Source: an uncultured bacterium
GTDB taxonomy: Bacteria > Cyanobacteriota > Vampirovibrionia > Gastranaerophilales > Gastranaerophilaceae
Length of the DNA: 48,127 nucleotides
Direction of reading: 5' to 3'
Assembly (NCBI GenBank): GCA_949282215.1
Contig: CASDPF010000023.1
Span: forward strand, 1-48,127
A program made the position numbers and the translations under genes. The notes beneath the pieces were generated by a model that was not told the origin of the DNA, made no database searches, and saw nothing but the letters and a program-made list of their open reading frames with translations. Shown here piece after piece: positions 2,320 to 47,379 of this stretch; position 1 is the stretch's first letter, and each line of letters begins with the position of its first letter.

Positions 2320-3210
2320 CTATTGATTTAGGACTTTTTCTAATTCAGGTTCAGCATGGATTGAAATATTGCAAGAGCCTAAGTCTTGTTTAATTTCAGT
2401 TTCTATTTTATCGCAAATATTGTGGCAATTTTCAATAGTCATATTTTTAGGGAATAATAGCGTAAGTTCTATTTGTTTACCGGGGCCGACACTTCTGCCT
2501 TTTAAGTCTTTATATCCGCATAGACCTTCGGTTTTGAATTTATTAATTACTTTGGCAATTTTATCTAAGTCTTCATTAGGTAAAGATGCATCTAATAAGT
2601 TATTTAAAGTAGTTTTTGAAATTGAAATACCTGTTTTAAGTATAATAAGTGCAACTATAATAGCAATTATCGGGTCTAAAATTAATAATCCTGTGATTTT
2701 TATAAGTATTAATCCGATTAATACACCCAATGATGACCAAATATCAGTCCTCAAATGTTCTCCGTCAGCGTATAAAGAAATAGAGTTTGTTTTTTTAGCA
2801 ACGTGAAACAAGTAAGAACTAACAAGGAAATTTGCAATAACAGCTATCCCCATAACAATAATTCCAAGATATGATTCGGTCTCCATCGTATAGCCAAGGA
2901 TTAGTTTTTTACCTGCTTCATACATAATGAAAATTGCAGCGAAAATAATCAATCCGCCTTCAAAAAATCCTGACATATCTTCATATCTGCCATGACCAAA
3001 CGGATGTTCTTTATCTGCAGGTTCTGAAGATTTCATTACTGCAAAAAAAGTTAAAACAGATGCTAAGAAGTCACTAAGTGAATGGATTGCTTCTGATATA
3101 ATACTTATACTGCCTGAAATTACACCGGCAATAAGTTTTAAAAGAATAATTGTAGCATTAGAAAATATTGAAAGTCCTGCTGCAAATTTTTTTTCATTTT
3201 CCGCTAACAT
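2320..3210 (-). CDS. cation diffusion facilitator (CDF) metal transporter
   Basis: 296 aa, the normal CDF length. It has hydrophobic helices from residue 12, the metal-site pair H43xxxD47 (HSLSDF), the HPFGHGR signature after TM2, and a second HxxxD (DGEHLRTD) in a later helix. A cytoplasmic ferredoxin-like tail contains the C-terminal HAEPE. CDF proteins export Zn, Mn, Fe or Co by proton antiport; the HxxxD/HxxxD layout is most often Zn, but the substrate cannot be settled here. No Shine-Dalgarno is seen. An extended -10 TGG-CATAAT (3218-3226) ends 7 nt before the ATG, so the mRNA may be leaderless. Confidence 0.93.
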   Translation of the reverse strand: MLAENEKKFAAGLSIFSNATIILLKLIAGVISGSISIISEAIHSLSDFLASVLTFFAVMKSSEPADKEHPFGHGRYEDMSGFFEGGLIIFAAIFIMYEAGKKLILGYTMETESYLGIIVMGIAVIANFLVSSYLFHVAKKTNSISLYADGEHLRTDIWSSLGVLIGLILIKITGLLILDPIIAIIVALIILKTGISISKTTLNNLLDASLPNEDLDKIAKVINKFKTEGLCGYKDLKGRSVGPGKQIELTLLFPKNMTIENCHNICDKIETEIKQDLGSCNISIHAEPELEKVLNQ

Positions 3211-3330
3211 AACCGATATTATGCCACTTTAAATAAAAAAAGTAAAGTAAAAATATAGCCACTTGTCTACTTTTTTATGAATTAAGTTTATTATATAATT
3301 TCGAGTTATGAACACGGGAGATAAGATATA

Positions 3331-5211: not shown

Positions 5212-5934
5212 ATGGTTTCAAATATTATAAAGAGTGTTAAAAAAAACATACATGAATTTTCTCTGCTTCCTGACTCTGTTCTAATAGAACCGGAACTTAA
5301 ATATGAAGATGAAATTGTTTATAGAAAGCATACAGGAAAAGTTGAATCTGTTACAAAATTCAGCCAAAAAACAGGAAATAAAATCAAAACAATAAAATAT
5401 GATTATTTTGATGATAAAAAGATTAAATCAATAGATGAATTTGATGAAGATACGGGAAAAATAATTAAGACAACAAATTTTACACTCTTTAAAGCGGTGA
5501 CTGAATTTGATATCCAATCAGGAAAAAAATTACGCACATTAAATTATAATTTTCGTGATGAAAATAAATTGTCCTCAATTCATGAATATAACTTAAAATA
5601 TGAAAAAGTTTCAAAGGTTACAGTATTTAGAAATGATGGCAAAAGTATCAGTATGGTTAAAGAATTAAATCCGCAGACTGAGAGAATTGAAAAATGTATA
5701 AGTTTTAAAAGAGATTCAAATACCGTAAGCTCTGTTTCAAAATATGATTTTGACGGCAATAAAACAGTAAAAACTACAATGTATTATAACGGTATTACTT
5801 TTAATAAAACAAAAGAAACAAAACAAATTGATTTCGTAGGTTTTAAACCGATAAGCGGTGCTGAAAAAGCTAAAAAAGATAAACTTATAGACAATTTATT
5901 TAAAAATAAACTGACTTTTTCAATGCTGTCATGA
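5212..5934 (+). CDS. beta-repeat protein resembling DUF2963 repeats
   Basis: 240 aa. From residue 25 to 195 it has about six imperfect repeats of 20-25 residues built on T-G-K-x-x-K-T-x-x-Y-x-x-D-x-K-x-x-S-x-x-E-F/Y (for example EFDEDTGKIIKT, EFDIQSGKKLRT, ELNPQTERIEKC). This pattern resembles DUF2963, best known from mollicutes, and is likely a beta-repeat scaffold. The C-terminal 35 residues are basic and helical. No signal peptide or transmembrane helix. AGAGGG precedes the ATG and a clear promoter lies at 5143-5171. Function unknown. Confidence 0.8.
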   Translation: MVSNIIKSVKKNIHEFSLLPDSVLIEPELKYEDEIVYRKHTGKVESVTKFSQKTGNKIKTIKYDYFDDKKIKSIDEFDEDTGKIIKTTNFTLFKAVTEFDIQSGKKLRTLNYNFRDENKLSSIHEYNLKYEKVSKVTVFRNDGKSISMVKELNPQTERIEKCISFKRDSNTVSSVSKYDFDGNKTVKTTMYYNGITFNKTKETKQIDFVGFKPISGAEKAKKDKLIDNLFKNKLTFSMLS

Positions 5935-6858: not shown

Positions 6859-8196
6859 TTATTTTTTATCTTTTTCAGAACGTTCACGAACGAAAATTCT
6901 AATCGGTGTTCCGAAAAATCCGAAAGCCTCACGCAATTTATTTTCAATATAACGCTTATAATGGTCTTTTAATAAATCTGCATTATTTGCAAAAAGAACA
7001 AATGTTGGAGGCTGAATATCAGATTGTGTTGAATAAAGAATTTTTAATCTCTTACCTTTAATTGATGTTGGAGGATTAAGAGCATAAAGTTCTTTCACTA
7101 CCTTATTCAACAAACCTGTAGATACACGTTTTGTTGATTGTTCATAAACTTCAGCTGCTTTATCAAAGATTTGATGAAGTCTTTGTTTTGTTTTGGCACT
7201 GATATAAATTTTTGGTGCAAATTCCAAAAATGGTATATCATTTGCTAATTTCTTATCAAATTGATTGATAGTATTAGCTTTTTTATCTTCAATCAAATCC
7301 CATTTATTGATTGCAATGATTAAACCTTTTCCGGCTTCTGTGATAATTGATGAAATTTTCTTATCCTGATCAGAAATGCCTTCTGTAGCATCAATTACAA
7401 GAAGTGCAACATCGCAATCCCGTATTGAACGTATAGCTCTATCGACAGCAAACTTTTCTACACCGTAATCTACTTTTGATTTTTTTCTTATTCCTGCTGT
7501 ATCTACAATTATAAACTCTTTGTCTTTATAAGTGATATAACTGTCAATACTGTCACGAGTTGTACCTGATACATCAGAAACGATTACTCTATCTTCATTT
7601 AGCAAAGCATTAACAATCGAAGATTTTCCTGCATTTGGACGTCCGACGATTGCTATTTTAATATTTTTATCTTCTTCTGGGATTTCATCTGTTGCGATAA
7701 AATCTTCCGTAATAATTTCAAGTAAATCTCCAACCCCACCGCTTCCGTGGAGTGCAGAAATACCGATAGGCTCTCCAAGTGCAAGAGAATAAAAATCATT
7801 TACCATTAAATATGCTTCAGGATTATCAAGTTTATTTACCGCAAGGAAAACCGGTTTTCCTGACTGTCTTAAAATATTTGCAATATCATAATCAACAGGA
7901 TTTACTCCCTCTTTCCCGTCGACAAGAAAAACAATTTTATCCGCTTCATCACAAGCGATTCTTGCCTGATCGAAAATTGATATCATAATCTCATCTTCAT
8001 CTCCGGGGATAATACCTCCGGTGTCGATGACTGTAAAAATTTTATTTTGCCATTCTACATCAAAATAAATCCTGTCTCTTGTGACACCAGGGAGGTCGTC
8101 AACTATAGAATTTCTTGAACCTACAAGACGATTTACTAATGTAGATTTACCGACATTAGGTCTTCCGACTATTGCAACTATTGATTTTCTTTCCAT
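6859..8196 (-). CDS. der: ribosome-assembly GTPase Der (EngA)
   Basis: 445 aa from the start chosen here. Two tandem GTPase domains: GRPNVGKS (11-18) with DTGG and NKLD, then a second GRPNAGKSS with DTAG and NKWD, and a C-terminal KH-like domain. Der is needed for 50S maturation. The frame is open for 15 more codons, but those would lie across the rpsR terminator and lack homology. The ATG at 8196 begins MERKSIVAIVGRPN, as in the family. No Shine-Dalgarno; TGT-TATACT ends 6 nt before this ATG, so the mRNA looks leaderless. Confidence 0.96.
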   Translation of the reverse strand: MERKSIVAIVGRPNVGKSTLVNRLVGSRNSIVDDLPGVTRDRIYFDVEWQNKIFTVIDTGGIIPGDEDEIMISIFDQARIACDEADKIVFLVDGKEGVNPVDYDIANILRQSGKPVFLAVNKLDNPEAYLMVNDFYSLALGEPIGISALHGSGGVGDLLEIITEDFIATDEIPEEDKNIKIAIVGRPNAGKSSIVNALLNEDRVIVSDVSGTTRDSIDSYITYKDKEFIIVDTAGIRKKSKVDYGVEKFAVDRAIRSIRDCDVALLVIDATEGISDQDKKISSIITEAGKGLIIAINKWDLIEDKKANTINQFDKKLANDIPFLEFAPKIYISAKTKQRLHQIFDKAAEVYEQSTKRVSTGLLNKVVKELYALNPPTSIKGKRLKILYSTQSDIQPPTFVLFANNADLLKDHYKRYIENKLREAFGFFGTPIRIFVRERSEKDKK

Positions 8197-8202
8197 ACGA
8201 CA

Positions 8203-8211
8203 AGTATAACA
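8203..8211 (-). promoter_or_regulatory. leaderless extended -10 promoter of der
   Basis: Minus strand TGT-TATACT, then exactly 6 nt, then the ATG, which puts +1 on the A of the start codon. There is no good -35 at 17 bp; the TG motif would compensate. Confidence 0.6.
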
Positions 8212-8222
8212 TGAACATGAAA

Positions 8223-8254
8223 AAAGAATCGGAACTTTCACCCCGATTCTTTTA
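8223..8254 (-). terminator. terminator of the rpsF-ssb-rpsR operon
   Basis: 11-bp stem (AAAAGAATCGG and its complement) with a 10-nt loop, 33 bp after the rpsR stop, with T residues at the 3' side on the minus strand. It separates the ribosomal operon from der and rules out the longer der start. Confidence 0.88.
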
Positions 8255-8287
8255 AGTTTTTACTATCTGATTACTTTTAAATTTTAA

Positions 8288-9289: not shown

Positions 9290-9589
9290 CTATACGCTTG
9301 CCTTAGCTGATGTTTCCATAAACATTGTTCTGATAATATTGTCGCTTAATCTTAATTGTCTTTTGAATTCAGCAACTTTATCTGCCGGTAATGTTAAAAC
9401 TAAAGAAACAAAGAATCCGTCTCTAAAGTTTTGAATGTCATAAGCTAATTTTTTTCTTCCGATTTTGTCAGTAGATTCAACTTTTCCGCCAAAACCTACA
9501 ATTGTATCATTAAGTTTTGCGATTAAATTATCTACTTCTTCTGCATCTAAATTTGGTTTAAATACAGTTAAAAGTTCATAAGTTTTCAT
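9290..9589 (-). CDS. rpsF: 30S ribosomal protein S6
   Basis: 99 aa, ferredoxin-like S6 fold: MKTYELLTVFKPNLDAEEVD at the start, KIGRKKLAYDIQNFRDGFFVSL in the middle, and LRLSDNIIRTMFM. Binds S18 and 16S rRNA. AAAGGAG before the ATG is strong. The 5' leader is only about 30 nt, so no long S6-S18 autoregulatory structure is evident. Confidence 0.96.
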   Translation of the reverse strand: MKTYELLTVFKPNLDAEEVDNLIAKLNDTIVGFGGKVESTDKIGRKKLAYDIQNFRDGFFVSLVLTLPADKVAEFKRQLRLSDNIIRTMFMETSAKASV

Positions 9590-9622
9590 TTAATTTTTCT
9601 CCTTTTTCTAGTGTATATTCAG

Positions 9623-9652: not shown

Positions 9653-10480
9653 CATGTATTCCGCTGTAAATGTGTAATTTGCAGGGCCGATTAAGAAAAT
9701 ATTCTCTGTCAGATTTGACGAATTTCCTTGCCATTCAACGAATACAGACCCTCCAAGAAGATTAACTTTAACCTTTTGTTCTGTTAAGTTATTTAAAACA
9801 CATGCTACGACTGATGCACAGGCACCTGTTCCGCAAGCTAAAGTTATTCCGCATCCTCTTTCATATACACGCATATCAATTTCATTTTTTGAGATTACTT
9901 TTACAAATTCAGTATTTGTTTTTTCAGGGAAATATTCGTGTTTTTCGATAACAGGCCCATATTTTAGAGCCATTTCCATAGGGTCACCCTCTCCTATTAT
10001 TACGCAATGAGGATTTCCCATTGATACAGGAGTAATCTCAAATTCCCTATCCAAAGCTTTCAATTGACGAGAGCCTTTGAATGGGATTTTTTCGTCTTCA
10101 AGAATTGGTGTACCCATATTAACTTTAACATTCCCATCTTCAAGAAGTTGTGGTTTTATAATTCCCGCACCTGTCATAACTGAAAATTCTTTTTTATTGA
10201 TAAGACCCTTGTCATAGACATATTTAGCAAAACATCTCATTCCATTCCCGCACATTTGTGCGATAGAACCGTCAGAATTATAAAAATACCAGCCGATATC
10301 GGTTTCTTTGGTATCGGTTTTAGGTATAATCATTCCGTCTGCACCTATGCCAAAGTTTCTGTTACAAACTTTTTTTGCTAATTCTTCCATTGACATATTA
10401 GTTTTTTCATATTCGCAATAGTCCATGATTACAAAATCATTGCCGCAGCCTTGCATTTTTGTTAATTTTATTTTTATCAT
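9647..10480 (-). CDS. dapF: diaminopimelate epimerase
   Basis: 277 aa. Converts LL-DAP to meso-DAP for lysine and peptidoglycan synthesis. The two catalytic Cys are in QMCGNGMRC and LACGTGACAS; the N-terminal KMQGCGNDFV is also typical. It implies a DAP-type wall. AAGAGG lies 7 nt before the ATG; TGC-TATAAT (10500-10508) is the likely promoter. Confidence 0.97.
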   Translation of the reverse strand: MIKIKLTKMQGCGNDFVIMDYCEYEKTNMSMEELAKKVCNRNFGIGADGMIIPKTDTKETDIGWYFYNSDGSIAQMCGNGMRCFAKYVYDKGLINKKEFSVMTGAGIIKPQLLEDGNVKVNMGTPILEDEKIPFKGSRQLKALDREFEITPVSMGNPHCVIIGEGDPMEMALKYGPVIEKHEYFPEKTNTEFVKVISKNEIDMRVYERGCGITLACGTGACASVVACVLNNLTEQKVKVNLLGGSVFVEWQGNSSNLTENIFLIGPANYTFTAEYML

Positions 10481-10499
10481 AATAACCTCTTCCCTTTGG

Positions 10500-10508
10500 A
10501 TTATAGCA
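10500..10508 (-). promoter_or_regulatory. extended -10 promoter of dapF
   Basis: Minus strand TGC-TATAAT, about 20 nt upstream of the ATG, leaving a short leader with AAGAGG. Confidence 0.5.
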
Positions 10509-11212: not shown

Positions 11213-13582
11213 TTAAAGTACATTGCAAATTTCTTCAAGCTCTTTCAAATCGTCTTCTAAAAGACTTTTTTGGAAGAGTTCGCATTCTTCTGCCATATTT
11301 AAAATTTCTTCGTATTTCGGATTATGCAAAACTTTTGCAATATCATCTATCCCTTTAAAATCAACAATATAGAATATTGGAGATTTTTCTTTAATAGTCA
11401 AGAATTCACATTCTTCAAAAAGTTCGAAAACTCTTTCTATAAGTGAAATAGATTTTCCTAAATGGCTTGCACATCTTCTCAATTCAACTTTCCCGTTGTT
11501 ATTATTATGAGCAAACTTTAACATTCCGGCAATGGTTTTTAAAAATTCTTTATCGTCAAAGTATTTGATATCGTAATTCATAAGATGAATACTTTGAGGA
11601 GTTGTTTCTCTTAGAATGTTTTCAAAAGTTTCTTTATCTGCAGGATAATCAAAAAACATTACGGAATTGCATTGAACAGGATTTTCTCTTGAAAAAGTTT
11701 TTTCAGAAATATATTTAAAAGGTCTAAGCATATCAAGGATTTGCTTACTTTCTGCAAATACCATAATATTTTGTTTTGCATTTTTTATATAATCATTAAC
11801 TTGTTGTAAGATATCTGTTTTTTTACGGTGATCGTGAATTTTTAATTTATTTAGAGGTTCTGCAATTTCTTCTTTCAAATATTCAGAGTGAATATCATCA
11901 ATGATTAATTGTACTGAAGTATTTCCGTTATATTCATTAATTTGAGGATGAAAGGCTATATCAAGCGTATCTCCGTTCACGAGAGAAATATCTCCCTGCT
12001 GCCAGCGAACACAAGTCAATTCATTTGCACCCTGTTGTACTGTTAAGCGAAGGTGGTTTTGGTTTTCACCCATAAGTCTTTTTTGTTTTATTTTAAGATT
12101 TTTAATTGCAAATACAGGACTTGGATTGCTTGCTCCAAAAGGTTCCATTTTAGAAATTTCTTCCACCAAATCAACTGTAATATCATCAGGAGTTAATTCC
12201 AAATCTATATTTAAAAACGGTTTTAAATCTTTTCCTGTAGTCATTTCTTTTACTACACGCAAAAGTTGTTCTTTTACTTGTTTGAAAGGGTATTTTTCAG
12301 GTGAAAAAGCAAGTCCTGCAGCAAGAGAGTGTCCTCCAAAACCGTCGAGGAGTTCGCTTATTGATGATATGGTTTCATACAAATGCACTCCTTCAATACT
12401 TCTTGCAGAACATTTAATTTGCTTGGTTTCTTCAGAATATGTCATCAAAAAAGTCGGTTTGTAATATTTTTCAACGAGTTTTGATGCTACAATACCGATA
12501 ATTCCGACATGCCATTTTGAGTTAAATAAAATGATTGCAGGGTTTCTATTTCCTTCCTTTTGCACCATATCGTCAGCTTCTGCAAAGACTTCCTGACAGA
12601 GAGTCTGGCGAATTTTGTTAAATTCTTCAAGGTTTGTAATAGCCATTTCAATTTCTTGAGGGTTATCGGAAATCAAAACTTTTATAGCTTCTTCAACTGT
12701 GTCTAAACGCCCTGAAGCGTTAATTCTTGGAGCGACTCCGAATGCTATGGTTTCTGCATTAACTCCGCTTTCAACTTTATAACCTGCTCGTTCTATGAGT
12801 CTTTTTAAACCGTAATGTTTTCCTTTTGAAATTAAATCCAAACCTTTTGTCACAAGATATCTGTTTTCATGGACTAAAGGTACGACGTCTGCAATCGTTC
12901 CCACTGCGACATAAGGCAAAATTGAGGGAATAAAATCGGTTTTTTGATAATGCTGTAGAAGACCCGTTGCAACTTTAAATGCTACCCCGACTCCTGCAAG
13001 AGATGTAAGAGAGTCAATATCTTTTGCCGATAAATTTTCATCAAGTGCATTTTGAGCTTTTGGGTTGATAATTGCGTAAGCGTCAGGTAATTGTTCAGGT
13101 GCTTCGTGGTGGTCTGTTATAATTACATCTATTTTAAAACTTTTTATAAAATTAACAGCTTCAATATCTGAAATTCCGCAGTCAACTGAAATTATGATTT
13201 TGGGTTTTAAGGCGGTCATTAATTTTACGAGGGCTTTTGTATCAAAGCCGTGACCTTCTTTTTCTCTGTCGGGGATAAAATAATTTACGTTTGCACCAAG
13301 ATGAGTGAAAGTTCTATACAAAAGTGAAGTTGATGTCACACCGTCTGCATCAAAATCTCCGTAAATAACAATTTTTTCCTGATTATCTATAGCTTTTGAT
13401 AATCTTCCGACAGCCTTTTGCATATCGGTGAAGACATTTGGCTGATATGGGGTGAATTCAAGCGGATTTAGAAACTCTTTGATTTCTTCTTCCGTTTTTA
13501 TTCCACGAGAATTTAAAAGCCTTTTTAATAAAGACTTTTCAGTCGTTTCCTGTTTGCTAAATCTCCACTCTCTAACCGTCAT
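11213..13582 (-). CDS. recJ: single-stranded-DNA-specific 5'-3' exonuclease RecJ
   Basis: 789 aa. DHH phosphoesterase motifs: VIYGDFDADGVTST, SVDCGISD, TDHHEAPE; DHHA1 motif GGHSLAAGLAF; then an OB fold (LRLTVQQG...NGNTSVQLIIDDI). It acts in recombination and base-excision repair. It is longer than E. coli RecJ (577 aa): the extra C-terminal 200 residues resemble the extension of Gram-positive and cyanobacterial RecJ. No Shine-Dalgarno; the promoter predicts a leaderless mRNA. Confidence 0.95.
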   Translation of the reverse strand: MTVREWRFSKQETTEKSLLKRLLNSRGIKTEEEIKEFLNPLEFTPYQPNVFTDMQKAVGRLSKAIDNQEKIVIYGDFDADGVTSTSLLYRTFTHLGANVNYFIPDREKEGHGFDTKALVKLMTALKPKIIISVDCGISDIEAVNFIKSFKIDVIITDHHEAPEQLPDAYAIINPKAQNALDENLSAKDIDSLTSLAGVGVAFKVATGLLQHYQKTDFIPSILPYVAVGTIADVVPLVHENRYLVTKGLDLISKGKHYGLKRLIERAGYKVESGVNAETIAFGVAPRINASGRLDTVEEAIKVLISDNPQEIEMAITNLEEFNKIRQTLCQEVFAEADDMVQKEGNRNPAIILFNSKWHVGIIGIVASKLVEKYYKPTFLMTYSEETKQIKCSARSIEGVHLYETISSISELLDGFGGHSLAAGLAFSPEKYPFKQVKEQLLRVVKEMTTGKDLKPFLNIDLELTPDDITVDLVEEISKMEPFGASNPSPVFAIKNLKIKQKRLMGENQNHLRLTVQQGANELTCVRWQQGDISLVNGDTLDIAFHPQINEYNGNTSVQLIIDDIHSEYLKEEIAEPLNKLKIHDHRKKTDILQQVNDYIKNAKQNIMVFAESKQILDMLRPFKYISEKTFSRENPVQCNSVMFFDYPADKETFENILRETTPQSIHLMNYDIKYFDDKEFLKTIAGMLKFAHNNNNGKVELRRCASHLGKSISLIERVFELFEECEFLTIKEKSPIFYIVDFKGIDDIAKVLHNPKYEEILNMAEECELFQKSLLEDDLKELEEICNVL

Positions 13583-13588
13583 AACTGA

Positions 13589-13616
13589 ATTTTAGCATAA
13601 AATTAGTTTCGGGCAA
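13589..13616 (-). promoter_or_regulatory. leaderless promoter of recJ
   Basis: Minus strand TTGCCC (13611-13616), 16 bp, TGC-TAAAAT (-10 at 13589-13594), then exactly 6 nt to the ATG. Confidence 0.55.
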
Positions 13617-17455: not shown

Positions 17456-18790
17456 TCACTTGCCGATACAAAAATGGCTGAAAATATTTTCTAGGATTTC
17501 ATCTGTAATTACTTCCCCTGTAATTTCATCAAGGAATAGCAGTGCAGATTTTAGGTCAATAGAAATTAAATCCTGTAATTCTCCGATTTTAGCGGCATTT
17601 AAAGCTTGGGTGAGACTTTCTTTGCATTTTACAAGACAATCCTGTTGTCGTTTATTTGTAATAAATTCCGTATCTTCAGATGAAAAATTATAAACTATTT
17701 CTTTTATTTTTTCTTTTAATTCTTCAATTCCCTTATCTGTTTGGACTGAAATATTAATCGCATTATCTATAGGTTTTTCAATCAGGTCGCATTTGTTAGC
17801 AACAATGAGATGGTTTTTATTTTCAATTAAATTAAGAATAGCTTTGTCTTCTTCGTTCATCCCTCTGCTTGCATCATAAATAAACAGTACCAAATCCGCT
17901 TCATCAGCCGATTGTTTTGAATATTCAATTCCTATTTCTTCGACTTTTCCAACCTCTTCATTATCACGAATGCCTGCCGTATCAATAAGAGTAATTGCAA
18001 CATCCCAGTCAAGATTTTCTTTTATAACATCTCTTGTTGTGCCTGCAATATCTGTGACGATTGCTCTTTCGACATTCAGTAATTTATTAAATAATGACGA
18101 TTTTCCGACATTCGGTTTTCCGACAATGGCAATTTTTACTCCTTGACGCAGGATATCAGAGGATTTTGCGTAGGATAAAATCTTATTAATTTCTTTAAGT
18201 GAATGTTCAAAACTTTCTATCAGGTATGAATATTCAGGTTCTGCAACATCTTCAGGAAAGTCTATGCCGGCAATTATTTTCGATAAAACTTCAAAAATTT
18301 CTTTTTTTATTTCTCCAATTTTTTCGCCTAAAACTCCTGAGAGATTTTTAGCAGATTGAATTGCAAAATTTCTGGTTTTTGCGTGAATTAAATCAGCTAC
18401 TGCTTCAGCTTGAGAGAGATCCATTTTTTTATTTAAGAAAGCTCTTTTGGTAAACTCCCCTCTTTCAGCTGTTCTTGCACCATTTTTAAGAATAAGGTCA
18501 AGAATATTTCTTACAACATTAATTCCGCCGTGGCAGTGAACTTCAATAACATCTTCTCCTGTGTAGCTGTGCGGATTTCTGAACGGAAGCACTATAACTT
18601 CATCAATTTTTTTTCCGTTATCTTGAATCCAGCCGTGAGCGATTTTTCCTGCTTCAAGGTTTTTTTTAGAAAAAATTTTTTTAATTATATCAAATGCTGT
18701 ATCGCCTGAAATTCTAATTACGCCGACACCACCAGTACCTAGAGGGGTTGCAATTGCAGCTATTGTATCAAATTCCTGTATAATATTCAT
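17456..18790 (-). CDS. mnmE: tRNA modification GTPase MnmE
   Basis: 444 aa from MNIIQEFDTIAAIATPLG, the family start. N-terminal formyl-THF-binding domain, GTPase (GKPNVGKSSLFN, DTAGIRD, NKCD) inside a helical domain, and the C-terminal CIGK with the conserved Cys. With MnmG it makes cmnm5-type wobble uridines. The frame is open 20 codons further, but that stretch is the upstream gene's terminator. No Shine-Dalgarno; TGC-TATAAT ends 6 nt before the ATG. Confidence 0.97.
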   Translation of the reverse strand: MNIIQEFDTIAAIATPLGTGGVGVIRISGDTAFDIIKKIFSKKNLEAGKIAHGWIQDNGKKIDEVIVLPFRNPHSYTGEDVIEVHCHGGINVVRNILDLILKNGARTAERGEFTKRAFLNKKMDLSQAEAVADLIHAKTRNFAIQSAKNLSGVLGEKIGEIKKEIFEVLSKIIAGIDFPEDVAEPEYSYLIESFEHSLKEINKILSYAKSSDILRQGVKIAIVGKPNVGKSSLFNKLLNVERAIVTDIAGTTRDVIKENLDWDVAITLIDTAGIRDNEEVGKVEEIGIEYSKQSADEADLVLFIYDASRGMNEEDKAILNLIENKNHLIVANKCDLIEKPIDNAINISVQTDKGIEELKEKIKEIVYNFSSEDTEFITNKRQQDCLVKCKESLTQALNAAKIGELQDLISIDLKSALLFLDEITGEVITDEILENIFSHFCIGK

Positions 18791-18796
18791 AGCTTT

Positions 18797-18805
18797 ATTA
18801 TAGCA
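18797..18805 (-). promoter_or_regulatory. leaderless extended -10 promoter of mnmE
   Basis: Minus strand TGC-TATAAT with a perfect hexamer, exactly 6 nt before the ATG. No -35 match at 17 bp, as for der. Confidence 0.65.
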
Positions 18806-18815
18806 CAGAGGAAAA

Positions 18816-18844
18816 AAAACGGGTTTTACAATAAAACCCGTTTT
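18816..18844 (-). terminator. strong intrinsic terminator of the 217-aa gene
   Basis: 13-bp perfect stem (arms from AAAACGGGTTTTA) with a 3-nt loop, followed on the minus strand by a run of T (A8 on the plus strand overlaps the arm). It separates the 217-aa gene from mnmE. Confidence 0.93.
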
Positions 18845-20913: not shown

Positions 20914-20922
20914 TGATATAAT
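20914..20922 (+). promoter_or_regulatory. leaderless extended -10 promoter of the TPR gene
   Basis: TGA-TATAAT, perfect hexamer, exactly 6 nt before the ATG at 20929. No Shine-Dalgarno is present. Confidence 0.65.
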
Positions 20923-20928
20923 GCAGTT

Positions 20929-22695
20929 ATGGAAGAATTGAATTTAAACGAAATTACGGAACTTGTAGCGGATAAAAAATATGAGGAAGCAAAAGAAAAG
21001 CTTTCTTGTATATCCAATAACGATGAAAATAATTTGGAAGCTCTTAAACTATTGGGCTTATGTAATATTAATCTGGAAAATTACAAAGATGCACAAAGTA
21101 ATTATGAAACTATCGTAAAGTATTTTCCTGAAGATGCCACCAGTTGGTTTTATTTAGCCTGCTGCTATGATTATCAGGAAGATTATATTCATGCGACTGC
21201 CGCTTATGAAGAAGTTATAAAACTCAGAGAAGACTATACTGAGGCTTATAAGTGTCTTTGCGTAATTTACGTTAAACAACACAATGAAGATAAGGCTATT
21301 GAATTAGGTAAAAAAATTCTTGAAAAAGTCCAAGATGATTATACTCTTTTCTATATTGTAGGTACGGCGTATATGTCGACAAAACGTTTTGAAGAAAGTG
21401 TTTATTATCTGGAAAAGGCCCTTGAATTAAAACCGGATCACGCACAGTTATATAACAATCTTGGAACTTCTTATATTACTATCGGAAACCTTGATAAGGC
21501 TATTGAAAACTTCCATAAAGCAACTGAACTCGATCCTGATAATGCAATAACTTATTTCAATATCGGTTCAATTTTGCAAATGAAAAATGACCATAAAAAA
21601 GCTTGTGAATATTTTGAAAAGGCTTACAGCTTGGAAGAAAATGACAGTTTTCTAACCGCTCTTGCACTATCTGAAGTGAAACTTGAGGATTGGAATAATG
21701 CAATTAAACATTACAAAACTCTTATTACTCATCATCCTGAAAAACAGACTTATCAATACAATTTGGCTTGTTGTTTTGAGGCAAAAGGTGAATATGCTTA
21801 TGCAATAGGAATTTTGGTTAAACTTGTTGCACTAAATCCAAAATCGACTTCAATGTCTAAAAAGCTGGCAAATCTTTTCCTCAAAATTAATAAACCAATT
21901 CAGGCAAAAGAAATTTATGAAAGAATAATTATTCAAGGCAGTGTTTCGTTTGAGACATACTATGAGTTTGCCAATATATGTATGCTTACGGATGATACCG
22001 ATAAAGCTGAAAAAATTCTTAAAAAAGTCGTTGAATTGAAACCTGAACACGCTCAGGCTCATAAGGATTTGGGTGTAATTTATTTGACAAGAAAATTATT
22101 TGACTACGCAAAAGACGAGTTTGATAAAGCTCTTGAGTACGCACCGAATAATGGTGAAATTTTGTATGAATATGCAAACTATCTTCATGCGACAACTGAG
22201 TTTAAGCAGGCAGATGAATATTATCAAAAAGCATTGGAAGTTATGCCTGATAACGGTGATATTTTAGCTTTTTCAGCTTTGAATAAAATGCATACGGGGG
22301 ACTTGGAAAAAGCCCGTGAACAGATTGATTTAGCAATAGGTAAAAAAGTTCAAAGCGGATTTTTGTTATTTATCGCAGGTAAAATTCGTTACTTGTTGAA
22401 AGATTATGAAGATGCTAAAAGATTTTTAATCAAATCATTTGAGCTTGAACGCAATCCTGAAGTTAAAAATCTTTTAGGCTTATGCTATTTTGAGCTTGGT
22501 GATTATAATCAAGCAAAAAATATTTTTCAAAATATATTGGAAGGAAAACCTCTAAATCCTTACGTAATGCTGAGTATTGCTAAGTGTGATGCAAAACTCG
22601 GTGATACTGATGGAGCACTTGAGGTTTTAGAAAAAATAACAGAAAATTTCCCTGATAATGAAGAAGCACACGAATTGATAAGAGAGTTATCGTAA
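20929..22695 (+). CDS. large tetratricopeptide-repeat protein
   Basis: 588 aa made of about 15 TPR units of 34 residues, for example AQLYNNLGTSYITIGNLDKAIENFHKATELDPDN, read here as one unit in two halves: AQLYNNLGTSYITIGN and LDKAIENFHKATELDPDN. No signal peptide or enzymatic domain, so a cytoplasmic scaffold. TPR proteins of this kind often assist pilus or secretion assembly. The G-tract pilin leader begins 20 bp after its stop with no promoter of its own, so the two may be cotranscribed. Confidence 0.93.
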   Translation: MEELNLNEITELVADKKYEEAKEKLSCISNNDENNLEALKLLGLCNINLENYKDAQSNYETIVKYFPEDATSWFYLACCYDYQEDYIHATAAYEEVIKLREDYTEAYKCLCVIYVKQHNEDKAIELGKKILEKVQDDYTLFYIVGTAYMSTKRFEESVYYLEKALELKPDHAQLYNNLGTSYITIGNLDKAIENFHKATELDPDNAITYFNIGSILQMKNDHKKACEYFEKAYSLEENDSFLTALALSEVKLEDWNNAIKHYKTLITHHPEKQTYQYNLACCFEAKGEYAYAIGILVKLVALNPKSTSMSKKLANLFLKINKPIQAKEIYERIIIQGSVSFETYYEFANICMLTDDTDKAEKILKKVVELKPEHAQAHKDLGVIYLTRKLFDYAKDEFDKALEYAPNNGEILYEYANYLHATTEFKQADEYYQKALEVMPDNGDILAFSALNKMHTGDLEKAREQIDLAIGKKVQSGFLLFIAGKIRYLLKDYEDAKRFLIKSFELERNPEVKNLLGLCYFELGDYNQAKNIFQNILEGKPLNPYVMLSIAKCDAKLGDTDGALEVLEKITENFPDNEEAHELIRELS

Positions 22696-24842: not shown

Positions 24843-27800
24843 ATGTCGGATCCAATTTTAATAAATATATTAATACAAGCAGAAGGTTTGTCAGGACAAA
24901 ATGCTGAGAAGCGTCGTGCTGAACTGGAAAAGAAATCCACAGCTGAATTGCAGGAATTGCTTTCAAAAAGTTCTGATAAAGCCTCTTATGAATTGAATTT
25001 TTACCAGTCTGTCGGTTGGATGCCGGAGGCTAAACCCCAGCCTAATTACACCTCAGGGCAACAAGAAGCTATGCAATTTATGAAAGAAATGCTCGCTGAT
25101 GCAATGAGGATAATGTATGAGCAAGATAAAAAAGAAAATTCTGTAAGCAAAAGCGTTAATTTTGTTAAAGAAGTTTTTAATACCGAATATGCACAATCAA
25201 ATGTTACATCTGTAATTCAATCATTTCAAGAAGATTTTTCTGCAATAGAAGATGCGGCAAGGAAAGTTCCATCAGAATTTGAAGCTGAATTTCAGAAACG
25301 CAGAGGTGTAAAGGTTGATGAGAAAAAAATTGCAGACTGTAGCCAAAAAGCAAAAGATATGGCGGAATTTCAGGCTTCTACAGATGTGATAGATGGATTA
25401 AAAATAAAACTGAAAAATGCTTTAGTAAACGATACTTCTAATAATTTTACTCGTGCAGGAGAAAAGGCTATTTTAGAGACTCTTTCCACTATGGGTTATA
25501 CTAAAATCGGGGAGGTTATTCAAGCTGCAATGAAAGGTCATGAGAATGATCCTGCCGTAAAAGATTATATGAAAGAAAATGGTCGTTTTGCAGTTAGAAA
25601 AGATGAAGACGGCAAAATCGGGATTTATCGGGAAACAAAAGAAGGTGGATGGCAGCCTATAACTCAAGAACAGGCTCAAATTATCGGTAAAGAAATTGAA
25701 TTACGTTTAAATAAGCTTCATTCTGATATTTTAGGGGTAGACATTCCTGAAAATGCAACAAGTGAAGAAATTGCGAAATTGAATGAAGCAAAAATGGCAC
25801 AATATAAAGCTGATTATGAAAAAAGCTTTGCTCAAGCTTATGGAAAAAAAGACTTAAAACAACTTTCACAAAATTATGTAATGAGCCAAGAACAAGGTCA
25901 GGCGTATGTTCAGATGGGTGTAAATATTCTTGCTATGGCAGGAGCTATGTTCTCTGGCGGAGGTACGCTTGCATTAGTTTCAACCGGTGTAATGCTTACA
26001 AATCCTGTAGGATTTATTCAAAAAGCTACAGATGCAGATGGAATGACTGCTGAAGATTGGAAAAATTATGGTTCAGAACTTATAGAACAGGCAGGATGGA
26101 TGGCTTTAGGTATGGGTGCAGGTAAAGTCGGAGATCTTACGCGTAGTTTTGTAAAAGTCAAAGGACTTGCAAAAGTTATGAAAGATGGAGGTAAATCTTT
26201 AGATGACTTTATAAAAATTGCAGCTAAAAGTCCTGACATCCCTGCTGATGTTGCAAAAAGTCTTAAAACCGTTACAAGACTTGCGAATACTGCAGGTGTC
26301 ACAACTGAAGTAGCGACTGACATGGCAACGACAATTGCATTACAAAAAGATGGTGCGACAAGTATGGATTGGATTATGTCAATTGGAGGTTCATTAGTCG
26401 GTACTAAAATGCAAAAAGTTCTTGCTCCTATGTCACCTGATGCAAAAGTTGCTTATGTGATGGATGCGTTTAAAGATTTTAAATTATCTGAAACAGAAGC
26501 TAAACAATTGCTTAAAGCTATGGATGATTCGGCAAATGGACTTGCTCCGTTGAATAAACAAGATGTGTCAAATAATTCTCAGTATCAAGCAGAATTGGCT
26601 GATTTAAATGAAAAATTTAAAAATAAAGAAATCTCAGCCTCTGAGCTTTTGGCTGCCAAAAAAGCCCTAAGAGCTAAATATGAACAAGAAAATACGGTAA
26701 ATCATTCTCCGGCCTCGCCGACTAATCAAAAAGCTTCTTCAAAAGAAGATGCTCAAACAAATCCTGCTCAAAAAAGCGGGCCTGTTTTAGAGGGTGGAGT
26801 TCGTGCTGATGAACTTGATGAAGTTGCTCCGTTTGCACAAAGACTTGAAAATTCTTCTGATGTCGGAGATTATATCCCAGTGTCTACAAAAAAACTTGAT
26901 ATTAAAGAGTTTAAAAATAAATTAGTTTCACTAACAGACCCGAAAGACGGAACTCCATTATTTAAAGAATTGGATAGTGAATTTTTCATAGATAAGTTTG
27001 GGGTTGAGAATATCGCAGAAGTTTCCAAATTTATAGATTTTGCTCGTCAAAAGTATGATGATAATTTTGTCAAAGAGTGCTTATTTTCTTCTAACACTGA
27101 TAATAAAATAGATCCTATTGATAAAATTAAATTGCAAAGAGATTTGATAGAAAATTTTGATAATACTCCTGAAAATGCTCAATCAATTTTGACTTTATTT
27201 TGGACTATAAGCCCAAGTAAATTTAAAGCTGCTCAAATTCTATCGGATATGCCAAAACGAGAAAATTCACCAGATGCTCAATGGAATGATTTGAATAGTT
27301 TTATTGAAAAAGTTGAATTGTTTGATACTAATAAGTCAGTTGAAGCCTTAAATCGTGCTGTTACATTACAAGTTAATAATGGTGCTAAAGCATTTGGCAT
27401 AAAAGATATAGATAAAATTATTCAGATAAAAAGTTTATTATTAAGTAATGATTTTTCAGATGATGAGCTTGTAAAACTTTCTTTATCATTAGTTGGTGTT
27501 GCAAAAAACAGTAATGATTTTGGATATATTGCTGACGTTATTGCTTCTCCTAAAAATAAAGATCTTCAGACCGAAATTAAAGAAATACTGAAAGATGATA
27601 AATTTATGACTATTGTCGCTAAAATGCATCAATTGCAGCCTAAGATTTATGATAAAGTTTATGCGACTAAAATTGCTCAACCTAATATAAAGGATAAAAC
27701 TTCAAAATCTTTAATTAAACGGAATGCCAAAAAAATTAAAGATCCTCAAAAACGTCTTGATTTTGTTACTAATATGGAAAAAACACTTCCAAACCTATCT

Positions 27801-30550: not shown

Positions 30551-30579
30551 TTGCATTGAAATTTTAGTCGTGGTAAGAT
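30551..30579 (+). promoter_or_regulatory. leaderless promoter of rimI
   Basis: TTGCAT (30551-30556), 17 bp ending in TGG, TAAGAT (30574-30579), then exactly 6 nt to the ATG at 30586. The cleanest example of the leaderless pattern, as both hexamers are present. Confidence 0.7.
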
Positions 30580-30585
30580 AGCTTT

Positions 30586-31116
30586 ATGACAGAGCTGTTT
30601 ACGATTAAAATAAGACCTATGACACAGATGGATTTGGATAATGTAATTTCCATTGAAGCGGAATCTTATGGTGACCATCATTGGTCAAAGGAATCTTTTT
30701 TTAATGAATTATCCAATGAGCTTGCGAGATATTATTGTGCATTTGATGCTAATGGCAATCTTATGGGATATGCGGGTACTTGGCAAATTCTTGAAGAAGC
30801 TCATATTACAAATATTGCGGTTTCTCCTGATTATAGGAGAAAAAAAGTCGGAGAGGCTCTACTTACAACGATTATCAATGATTGCAGAAATAATGGAATA
30901 AAATATATTACTCTGGAAGTCCGTGTAAGCAATACTCCTGCAATTAATCTTTATGAAAAATATGGTTTCAAATCTCTGGGCACAAGAAAAGGCTATTACC
31001 AAAATAATAATGAAGATGCCTTAATAATGTGGACAGAAAATATGTTTTACGATAAATTTAAATTAATATATGACAACAATCTAGAAGATTTGAAAAGGGT
31101 TGTAAATATAATATGA
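30586..31116 (+). CDS. rimI: ribosomal-protein-alanine N-acetyltransferase
   Basis: 176 aa GNAT. Acetyl-CoA loop RRKKVGEALL, preceded by ITNIAVSPDY, and the C-terminal NLYEKYGFKSLGTRKGYYQNNNEDALIM typical of RimI, which acetylates S18 Ala1 (family knowledge). About 25 extra residues at the C-terminus. The ATG lacks a Shine-Dalgarno but has a leaderless promoter. Its stop overlaps the next ATG by 4 nt (ATGA), so translation is coupled. Confidence 0.9.
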   Translation: MTELFTIKIRPMTQMDLDNVISIEAESYGDHHWSKESFFNELSNELARYYCAFDANGNLMGYAGTWQILEEAHITNIAVSPDYRRKKVGEALLTTIINDCRNNGIKYITLEVRVSNTPAINLYEKYGFKSLGTRKGYYQNNNEDALIMWTENMFYDKFKLIYDNNLEDLKRVVNII

Positions 31117-40256: not shown

Positions 40257-40320
40257 ACTATAGTGTATTTTAAAATAACTATAGCATATTTACAATAGTT
40301 AGTCAATACTATACTATAGT
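40257..40320. promoter_or_regulatory. divergent promoter region with three ACTATAG(T) operator-like sites
   Basis: ACTATAGT, itself a palindrome, occurs at 40257-40264 and 40313-40320, with ACTATAG at 40278-40284. Site 2 is the minus-strand -10 (TATAGT) of the 63-aa gene, 17 bp from TTGACT (40301-40306). Site 3 supplies the plus-strand TATAGT (40315-40320), exactly 6 nt before the XRE ATG. A regulator at these sites would control both genes. Confidence 0.6.
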
Positions 40321-40326
40321 TATGTT

Positions 40327-40554
40327 ATGAAAGAGCGAGTACTTGAAGTATCAAAGCTTGTGGGTAAGAATATTAAAGCTCAGAGGGTTAAAAAGGATTT
40401 AACACAAACCCAATTAGCTGAGCGTGCAGAAATGAGTTCTACAATGATAGGTCATATTGAGCGTGGTGAAAAATCTCCAACCGTTGAAACCCTTGCGTCA
40501 ATAGCTATTGCTTTAAATATTGACTTGTATAAACTTTTTATTTTTGAAGACTAG
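40327..40554 (+). CDS. XRE-family helix-turn-helix regulator
   Basis: 75 aa, a single Cro/C1-type HTH: VGKNIKAQRVKKDLTQTQLAERAEMSSTMIGHIERGEKSPTVETLASIAIAL, quoted in parts as LTQTQLAERAEMSSTMIGHI and ERGEKSPTVETLASIA. Acts as a DNA-binding dimer, probably on the ACTATAGT sites upstream. No Shine-Dalgarno; TATAGT ends 6 nt before the ATG, so leaderless. Its 3' end overlaps the convergent HAD gene by 17 nt. Confidence 0.93.
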   Translation: MKERVLEVSKLVGKNIKAQRVKKDLTQTQLAERAEMSSTMIGHIERGEKSPTVETLASIAIALNIDLYKLFIFED

Positions 40555-41344: not shown

Positions 41345-41864
41345 AGAATGCCCTCATTATAGCACAAACGGTTTTGGCATCAGCAATTTCACCTGATTTA
41401 ACTTGTTTGATGAATTCATCTAATGGAAATTCGTAATTTTTGATAATTTCTCCATCATCAGGGTGTTCTCCTACAAATTCCAATTCAGTGGCAAGATAAA
41501 GATATAATTTTTCATCACTGTAGCCCGGAGAGGTGTAAATAAAGCCGAGCGATTTCCAATTTTTGGCTCTATATCCGGTTTCCTCTTCCAATTCTCTTGC
41601 TGCTGCAAAAGCAGGGTCTTCACCTTTTTCTAATTTACCTGCAGGAAGTTCCAAAATTGTCTTTTTAAGCGGATATCTGAATTGTTTTACTGCCAGAATG
41701 GTATTTTCATCTTTTAATGCTGCTATTACGACTCCTCCGGAGTGTTTAACTATTTCACGAAAAGACTTTCTCCCTGTCGAAATTTCTATTTCATCACGGC
41801 ATATTGTCATTATTTTTCCGTTATAAACACATTCAGAGCTTAGAGTTTTTTCTTCCAAATCCAT
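41337..41864 (-). CDS. Nudix hydrolase, ADP-ribose pyrophosphatase type
   Basis: 175 aa. Nudix box GKLEKGEDPAFAAARELEEETGY is complete (G-x5-E-x7-REL-x-EE-x-G); the preceding VKQFRYPLKKTILELPAG and the following SPGYSDEKLYLYLA are typical of ADPRase (NudF-like). Hydrolyses ADP-ribose to AMP and ribose 5-phosphate (family knowledge). No Shine-Dalgarno; TGT-TAGAAT ends 6 nt before the ATG. First gene of a two-gene unit with the HAD phosphatase. Confidence 0.93.
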   Translation of the reverse strand: MDLEEKTLSSECVYNGKIMTICRDEIEISTGRKSFREIVKHSGGVVIAALKDENTILAVKQFRYPLKKTILELPAGKLEKGEDPAFAAARELEEETGYRAKNWKSLGFIYTSPGYSDEKLYLYLATELEFVGEHPDDGEIIKNYEFPLDEFIKQVKSGEIADAKTVCAIMRAFYD

Positions 41865-41870
41865 AATTTT

Positions 41871-41879
41871 ATTCTAACA
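41871..41879 (-). promoter_or_regulatory. leaderless extended -10 promoter of the Nudix gene
   Basis: Minus strand TGT-TAGAAT, exactly 6 nt before the ATG. Confidence 0.55.
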
Positions 41880-47054: not shown

Positions 47055-47071
47055 AGTTATTATATCCTTAG

Positions 47072-47120
47072 TTATCTAACTACATAGTTAGATAATATAA
47101 TTCAATAATTAGATTGTCAA
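47072..47120 (-). promoter_or_regulatory. consensus promoter of pilin 3 with a 24-bp operator-like palindrome
   Basis: Minus strand TTGACA (47115-47120), 17 bp, TATTAT (47092-47097). A perfect palindrome TTATCTAACTA-ca-TAGTTAGATAA (47072-47095) overlaps the last bases of the -10 and the transcription start, so a bound repressor would block initiation. Confidence 0.8.
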
Positions 47121-47133
47121 GCTTTTATCAATA

Positions 47134-47139
47134 TATAGT
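47134..47139 (+). promoter_or_regulatory. leaderless -10 of the small HTH gene
   Basis: TATAGT, exactly 6 nt before the ATG at 47146. The following bases TATG(A/T) are the same as at the XRE gene (40315-40324). No TG extension. Confidence 0.45.
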
Positions 47140-47145
47140 TATGAA

Positions 47146-47379
47146 ATGAAGAATGAGTATATTTTAGAAAAAGAAAATATAAGAAAGCTGATAAAACTTT
47201 TAGCAACAGCTGAGGGTAAGACTTTAACCAGACTAAAGGTTGATATTAACCATAAATATAATAAGACAGATTCTTTGGAAAATCTTGCAAATAAGTTGAG
47301 AAACAAGACTGTAAAGGTGACAGAGCTTTTAGAAATCTTTGATGTGCTTGAATATGAACTGGTTATAAGAAAAAAATAG
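47146..47379 (+). CDS. small Cro/C1-like DNA-binding protein
   Basis: 77 aa. The layout LIKLLATAEGKTLTRLKVDI...DSLENLANKLRNKTVKVTELLEIFDVLEYELVIRKK follows the small phage-type HTH family in which x-SLxNLxNKLRR-x-T-x-x-ELxxIxxxLxxEL is the recognition part. It is divergent from pilin 3 across a perfect palindrome, making it the likely repressor of both. No Shine-Dalgarno. Confidence 0.75.
   Translation: MKNEYILEKENIRKLIKLLATAEGKTLTRLKVDINHKYNKTDSLENLANKLRNKTVKVTELLEIFDVLEYELVIRKK

Follow-up and report, generated by a model that had tools for sequence, protein, structure and literature searches.

Leaderless genes occur widely among bacteria (PMC3160421). A strong TG peak, with a TG-extended −10 box close to the start, has been described in Lactococcus (Zheng 2011; PMC3160421), and 9% of the operons of S. 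pneumoniae D39 start exactly on the coding sequence (PMC6212727). In Deinococcus-Thermus, leaderless expression is associated with a −10 motif, TAnnnT, located ~6–7 bp before the start codon (PMC12340547). A few leaderless transcripts have been reported from cyanobacteria: S. elongatus UTEX 2973 has 19 such start sites, and in Prochlorococcus MED4 6–8% of primary starts are within 10 nt; many cyanobacteria were described as having neither Shine-Dalgarno (SD) nor leaderless starts as their main mode (PMC3160421; PMC9581028; PMC6091082; PMC5607370). According to GeneMarkS-2 predictions, about a fifth of bacterial species have leaderless transcription; the Cyanobacteria are listed there as a group whose signals are weak and unknown (PMC9581028). 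A literature search, with most subscription journals and all preprints outside its scope, returned no paper on leaderless starts in Melainabacteria and, judged by title, none relevant to promoters or transcription starts in Gastranaerophilales or Vampirovibrio.

The DNA analyzed here (the window) is a stretch of 48,127 nucleotides that constitutes an entire contig (C23) of a 2.19-Mb genome in 45 contigs, with a GC content of ~32%. Comparison of recJ orthologues placed the host within Candidatus Gastranaerophilales, near Candidatus Scatousia; the Gastranaerophilales are a non-photosynthetic gut lineage of Cyanobacteriota known mostly from metagenomes. A first-pass annotation of the window had listed eight genes with a −10 hexamer ending exactly 6 nt before the ATG, and all eight hexamers were found in place when the sequence was re-read (Table 1). 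As also claimed, TG is present one base 5′ of the hexamer in six of the eight, the XRE gene and the small 77-aa gene being the two without it, no SD was seen at any of the eight starts in the interval −17 to −5, and the CDF gene carries a similar site at 7 nt. The SD-led genes said to occur alongside them are likewise present, with AAGGAG/GAGG-type sites at many other genes in the window. TGnTAnnnT-N6-ATG was found in six of the 43 tabulated window genes, which against a background of 0.43% per gene (the rate of TGnTAnnnT at other spacings) gives P ~3e-8, in agreement with the view that the spacing is not due to chance. Pfam searches confirmed the der, recJ, mnmE, TPR, GNAT (rimI-like), Nudix, and CDF genes, and the XRE gene matched HTH_3 (E 3.3e-15); the 77-aa gene at 47146, previously labelled HTH, gave no significant Pfam match. 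The set of eight is upheld for its six TG-containing members, but the XRE gene and the small gene are individually weak, because the TG-less class barely exceeds background (an excess of ~42 at 6 nt vs. ~32 at frame-matched spacings) and the small gene in addition has an A at −1. Neither of these two can be taken as a leaderless start supported on its own.

Table 1. Candidate leaderless starts and SD-led contrast genes in the window.
Gene	Position	Strand	−10 box and spacing	Start codon	Remarks
der	8194..8211	-	TGt TATACT 8203-8208, N6	ATG 8196-8194	predicted +1 = A 8196
recJ	13580..13597	-	TGc TAAAAT 13589-13594, N6	ATG 13582-13580	
mnmE	18788..18805	-	TGc TATAAT 18797-18802, N6	ATG 18790-18788	
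TPR-repeat gene	20914..20931	+	TGa TATAAT 20917-20922, N6	ATG 20929-20931	
rimI-like GNAT gene	30571..30588	+	TGg TAAGAT 30574-30579, N6	ATG 30586-30588	
Nudix gene	41862..41879	-	TGt TAGAAT 41871-41876, N6	ATG 41864-41862	
XRE (HTH_3) gene	40315..40329	+	TATAGT 40315-40320, N6	ATG 40327	without TG; weak member
small 77-aa gene	47134..47148	+	TATAGT 47134-47139, N6	ATG 47146	without TG, A at −1; weak member
CDF gene	3208..3226	-	TGg CATAAT 3218-3223, N7	ATG 3210-3208	spacing-7 variant
rpsF (S6)	9587..9604	-			AAGGAG at start; SD-led contrast
dapF	10478..10508	-	TGcTATAAT, 19 nt from ATG		GAGG in short leader; contrast

The regions around the two TG-less sites contain repeats. Overlapping ATAGT/ACTAT repeats extend across the −10 region upstream of the XRE gene (40290–40326) and may represent an autorepressor operator. 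An inverted repeat, TATCTAACTA-TG-TAGTTAGATA, is located at 47070–47099 between the small gene at 47146 and a divergent pilin-like gene (start 47054), and is also a possible operator; the sequence TATAGTTATG is common to the XRE upstream region and the small gene. Elsewhere in the window, a 1738-aa ORF (24843–30059) has no Pfam match at E 0.001, and a protein encoded at 5212–5934 has four matched DUF2963 stretches (E 1.3e-28).

The statistics were obtained from an 848-kb sample of the genome (800 kb in 20-kb stretches plus the window), in which ORFs of at least 120 aa were called, overlaps removed, and start codons picked by simple rules, giving 684 ORFs, and from pattern counts in the whole genome. 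The first-pass annotation had proposed a genome-wide count against other spacings and named the lack of a peak at 6 nt as its refutation; the count shows the opposite, a sharp maximum at 6 flanked by a shoulder at 7. When spacings of 0–15 were compared, TGnTAnnnT was found ahead of a start ATG in 35 genes at spacing 6 and in 15 at spacing 7; the other spacings have 0–7 genes each. When the window was left out and ATG or GTG starts were accepted, 29 genes remained at spacing 6 and 15 at spacing 7, the 14 other spacings having 0–10 genes with a mean of 3.6. The motif at spacing 6 precedes 4.6% of first ATGs and 0.03% of internal in-frame ATGs, and no enrichment at this spacing was observed for GTG or TTG starts, ATG being preferred. 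Counts made without gene calls show a modest excess, with 68 raw matches at spacing 6 vs. 38–43 at spacings 3, 9, 12, and 15, and 151 matches at N6 vs. 97 at N9 in the whole genome. The excess is only modest because coding sequence supplies most of the matches; about two thirds of the raw matches are background, and the signal is concentrated at gene starts. A weight-matrix scan at a threshold of 5 identified 45 genes at spacing 6 and 17 at spacing 7, with 1–11 elsewhere. In the 684 genes, the excess over background is ~41 for spacing 6 and ~13 for spacing 7; since the spacing-6 set had served to train the matrix, these figures are an estimate only. Leaderless starts would accordingly make up roughly 8% of the genes, perhaps one in twelve, and an SD-like candidate start was found in about half of the genes in the sample. 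The signature, described earlier as window-wide, is present in the window, but its scope is lineage-wide and it is no special property of this contig.

The logo of the 35 sites reads TTTRTGnTAnnATnnnnnT|ATG, in which TG, TA…T, and ATG follow from how the sites were selected, whereas TTTR, an A as fifth base of the hexamer, and a T at −1 are free of that constraint. With the spacing fixed at 6, the first T of the TAnnnT box is located at −12, within the 10–12 bp upstream that define TA-led leaderless genes. No SD was flagged at any of the 35 TG-type starts, and no clear −35 consensus was found at these sites (at most 0.23 bits per position from −40 to −30). TG one base 5′ of the hexamer and the lack of a visible −35 consensus are features expected of putative extended −10 promoters. 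The base at −1 is a pyrimidine (T or C) in 35/35 leaderless starts vs. 57% of SD starts (Fisher P ~1e-8), the SD starts serving as control since anchoring on ATG could favour some bases nearby. Transcription typically starts at a purine after a pyrimidine, ~7 nt past the −10 box, and the uniform pyrimidine is therefore independent, if indirect, support for a +1 on the A of the ATG.

Boxes of the form TGnTAnn[AT]T show the same separation, with 32 at spacing 6 and then ~2 at each position over the range 7–18. At SD-led genes none of these boxes is within 10 nt of the start; they are found about 20–50 nt away, most commonly at 20–29 nt. Since the boxes of SD genes are located farther out, one kind of promoter appears to serve both classes, with leaders of ~1–10 nt avoided. 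The host assembly lacks a 16S rRNA gene, but one genome of the same genus and three genomes of the same order have an intact anti-SD tail (GGATCACCTCCTTT), which is consistent with SD initiation being possible beside leaderless initiation in this lineage. Depletion of leaderless starts from operon-internal positions was not decisive (16% vs. 25%). A putative intrinsic terminator abuts the promoter at 6/35 leaderless starts vs. 8% of SD starts, too few for a general rule. A stem-loop with a T-run, terminator-like in appearance, ends a few bases 5′ of the extended −10 box in both der (8215–8255) and mnmE (18806–18844), and a similar element was seen by eye in the mnmE orthologues of four relatives (L117, L118, L121, and L128).

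Among orthologues of the host family, TAnnnT is found at spacing 6 in 21/30 for mnmE, and TGnTAnnnT at spacing 6 in 13/29 and at spacing 7 in 5/29 for der (18/29 at 6–7), although the relatives are not independent and P values for orthologue counts are optimistic. The flanks of the mnmE and der boxes have diverged among these orthologues while the spacing is kept, and the start of the der protein is conserved. For recJ, the spacing-6 leaderless form was identified in eight close relatives, and most others have an extended −10 box 15–25 nt from the start; an SD-like site is present in 20/33. The control gene dapF has an SD-like site in 25/30 relatives, with boxes farther out, and has switched in one relative (L214), where TGcTACAAT-N6-ATG is found. 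The conserved spacing at mnmE and der together with the switches at recJ and dapF argue that the mode of initiation is a gene-level trait, which appears to be long kept and sometimes to switch. Outside the family, no clear spacing-6 sites were found in der and mnmE orthologues, except that mnmE in the sister family has close boxes. In this sister family (L236–L242 and L277–L289), the mnmE and der boxes are ~7–12 nt away from the ATG and these starts have no SD, which suggests very short leaders.

An extended −10 promoter firing on the A of the ATG, giving leaderless mRNA alongside the SD genes, is very probably the explanation of the signature. A sigma-70-type extended −10 box would be sited so that the A of the ATG falls on its natural start point, 7 nt past the hexamer; RNA polymerase would then produce an mRNA beginning with AUG and devoid of a 5′ leader, on which ribosomes would initiate at the 5′-terminal AUG without an SD. 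In the second mode, a like promoter ~20–50 nt upstream would yield a short leader bearing an SD. The original reading of these starts as leaderless is backed by the peak at 6, the invariant −1 pyrimidine, the spacing of der and mnmE conserved across genera, and the separate SD class with distant boxes. We infer that transcription would start on the A and that the leaderless AUG would be used directly by the ribosome. Efficient translation of leaderless mRNA may also be inferred, considering that the housekeeping genes der and mnmE use such starts family-wide.

The promoters could be real and the transcripts nevertheless carry a leader of 1–5 nt. Such near-leaderless initiation would account for the 15 genes at spacing 7, for der in five relatives, and for the sister-family boxes described above, but spacing 6 has a peak about twice as high as that of spacing 7, spacings 8–12 are near background, and the pyrimidine at −1 followed by A at +1 fits a start on the A, so that we regard it as improbable. 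Far less credible still is a role of the AT-rich element at the mRNA level, as a binding signal for the ribosome or S1 in a longer leader instead of as a promoter. Bacteroidetes are known to have AT-rich translation signals other than the SD (PMC3160421), but the element here has the detail of a promoter (TG, TTTR, TAnnAT) and recurs 20–50 nt upstream of SD-led starts, recJ keeps its box whether an SD leader is present or absent, and the equivalent element in Deinococcus cannot be replaced by a ribosome binding site (PMC12340547).

A compositional origin was also considered, as TGn and TAn are in-frame stops in frame with the ATG 6 nt on, and choosing the first ATG of a frame favours nearby upstream stops. 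However, the frame-matched spacings 0, 3, 9, 12, and 15 are not enriched, with 2, 0, 6, 3, and 2 genes vs. 35 at spacing 6 (2, 0, 7, 3, and 2 with the window left out), and in-frame stops are therefore not the cause of the peak. They would also leave the A at position 5, TTTR, and the −1 pyrimidine unexplained, and the box is kept in orthologues. This artefact was rejected and is, in our judgement, next to impossible.

The distribution of the signature was examined by comparing N6 and N9 counts in 292 genomes of Cyanobacteriota, a subset of which was summed; N9, which keeps the reading frame, was used as control in place of the reversed pattern. In the host family, N6 exceeded N9 in all 28 summed genomes (3689 vs. 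2141). N6/N9 ratios of 1.8–3.4 were found in families f6, f10, f13, and f14, and a weak excess (1.3) in f4; no photosystem reaction-centre genes were detected in the genomes sampled from these five families. The sister family f3, in the same class as the host, has a ratio of 1.06. Among photosynthetic members, one genome (f35) has 29 N6 vs. 11 N9 matches, the large family f12 has a small yet statistically clear excess (1.18), and the remaining families have ratios of 0.9–1.2, with little or no excess. Start-anchored histograms from other lineages, at 64–200 kb per lineage, are too small to decide lineage by lineage. Extended −10 leaderless initiation may be widespread in the branches of Cyanobacteriota that lack photosynthesis and rare in most of those that have it, implying gain or loss of an initiation mode within the phylum, but we propose this only tentatively and with less than even confidence.

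The host resembles Lactococcus and Streptococcus in its low GC, in the −10 box just 5′ of the start, and in the coexistence with SD genes, but it belongs to another phylum and its starts are predicted from sequence. With Deinococcus-Thermus it shares the TAnnnT spacing, the SD genes in the same genome, and the conservation among orthologues, while in Deinococcus-Thermus about one third of the genes are concerned, at high GC; in the host, the statistical signal all but requires TG. The cyanobacteria are of the same phylum as the host, and most photosynthetic families sampled have little or no spacing-6 excess. What is new is the lineage, together with its useful gene-level switches, the mechanism itself having been described in other bacteria.

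For gut Gastranaerophilales, known mostly from metagenomes, a sequence rule that yields promoter, transcription start, and translation start together is useful. Gene finders tuned to SD sites can misplace such starts in the upstream direction: for der and mnmE, the longest frames begin at GTG 8241 and TTG 18850, 15 and 20 codons upstream of the conserved leaderless ATG. Leaderless translation reportedly responds differently to some initiation inhibitors (PMC9581028). If gain or loss within the phylum is true, it would be traceable gene by gene through recJ, dapF, der, and mnmE, and genes whose orthologues are leaderless in some relatives and SD-led in others offer a natural series on why genes choose either mode.
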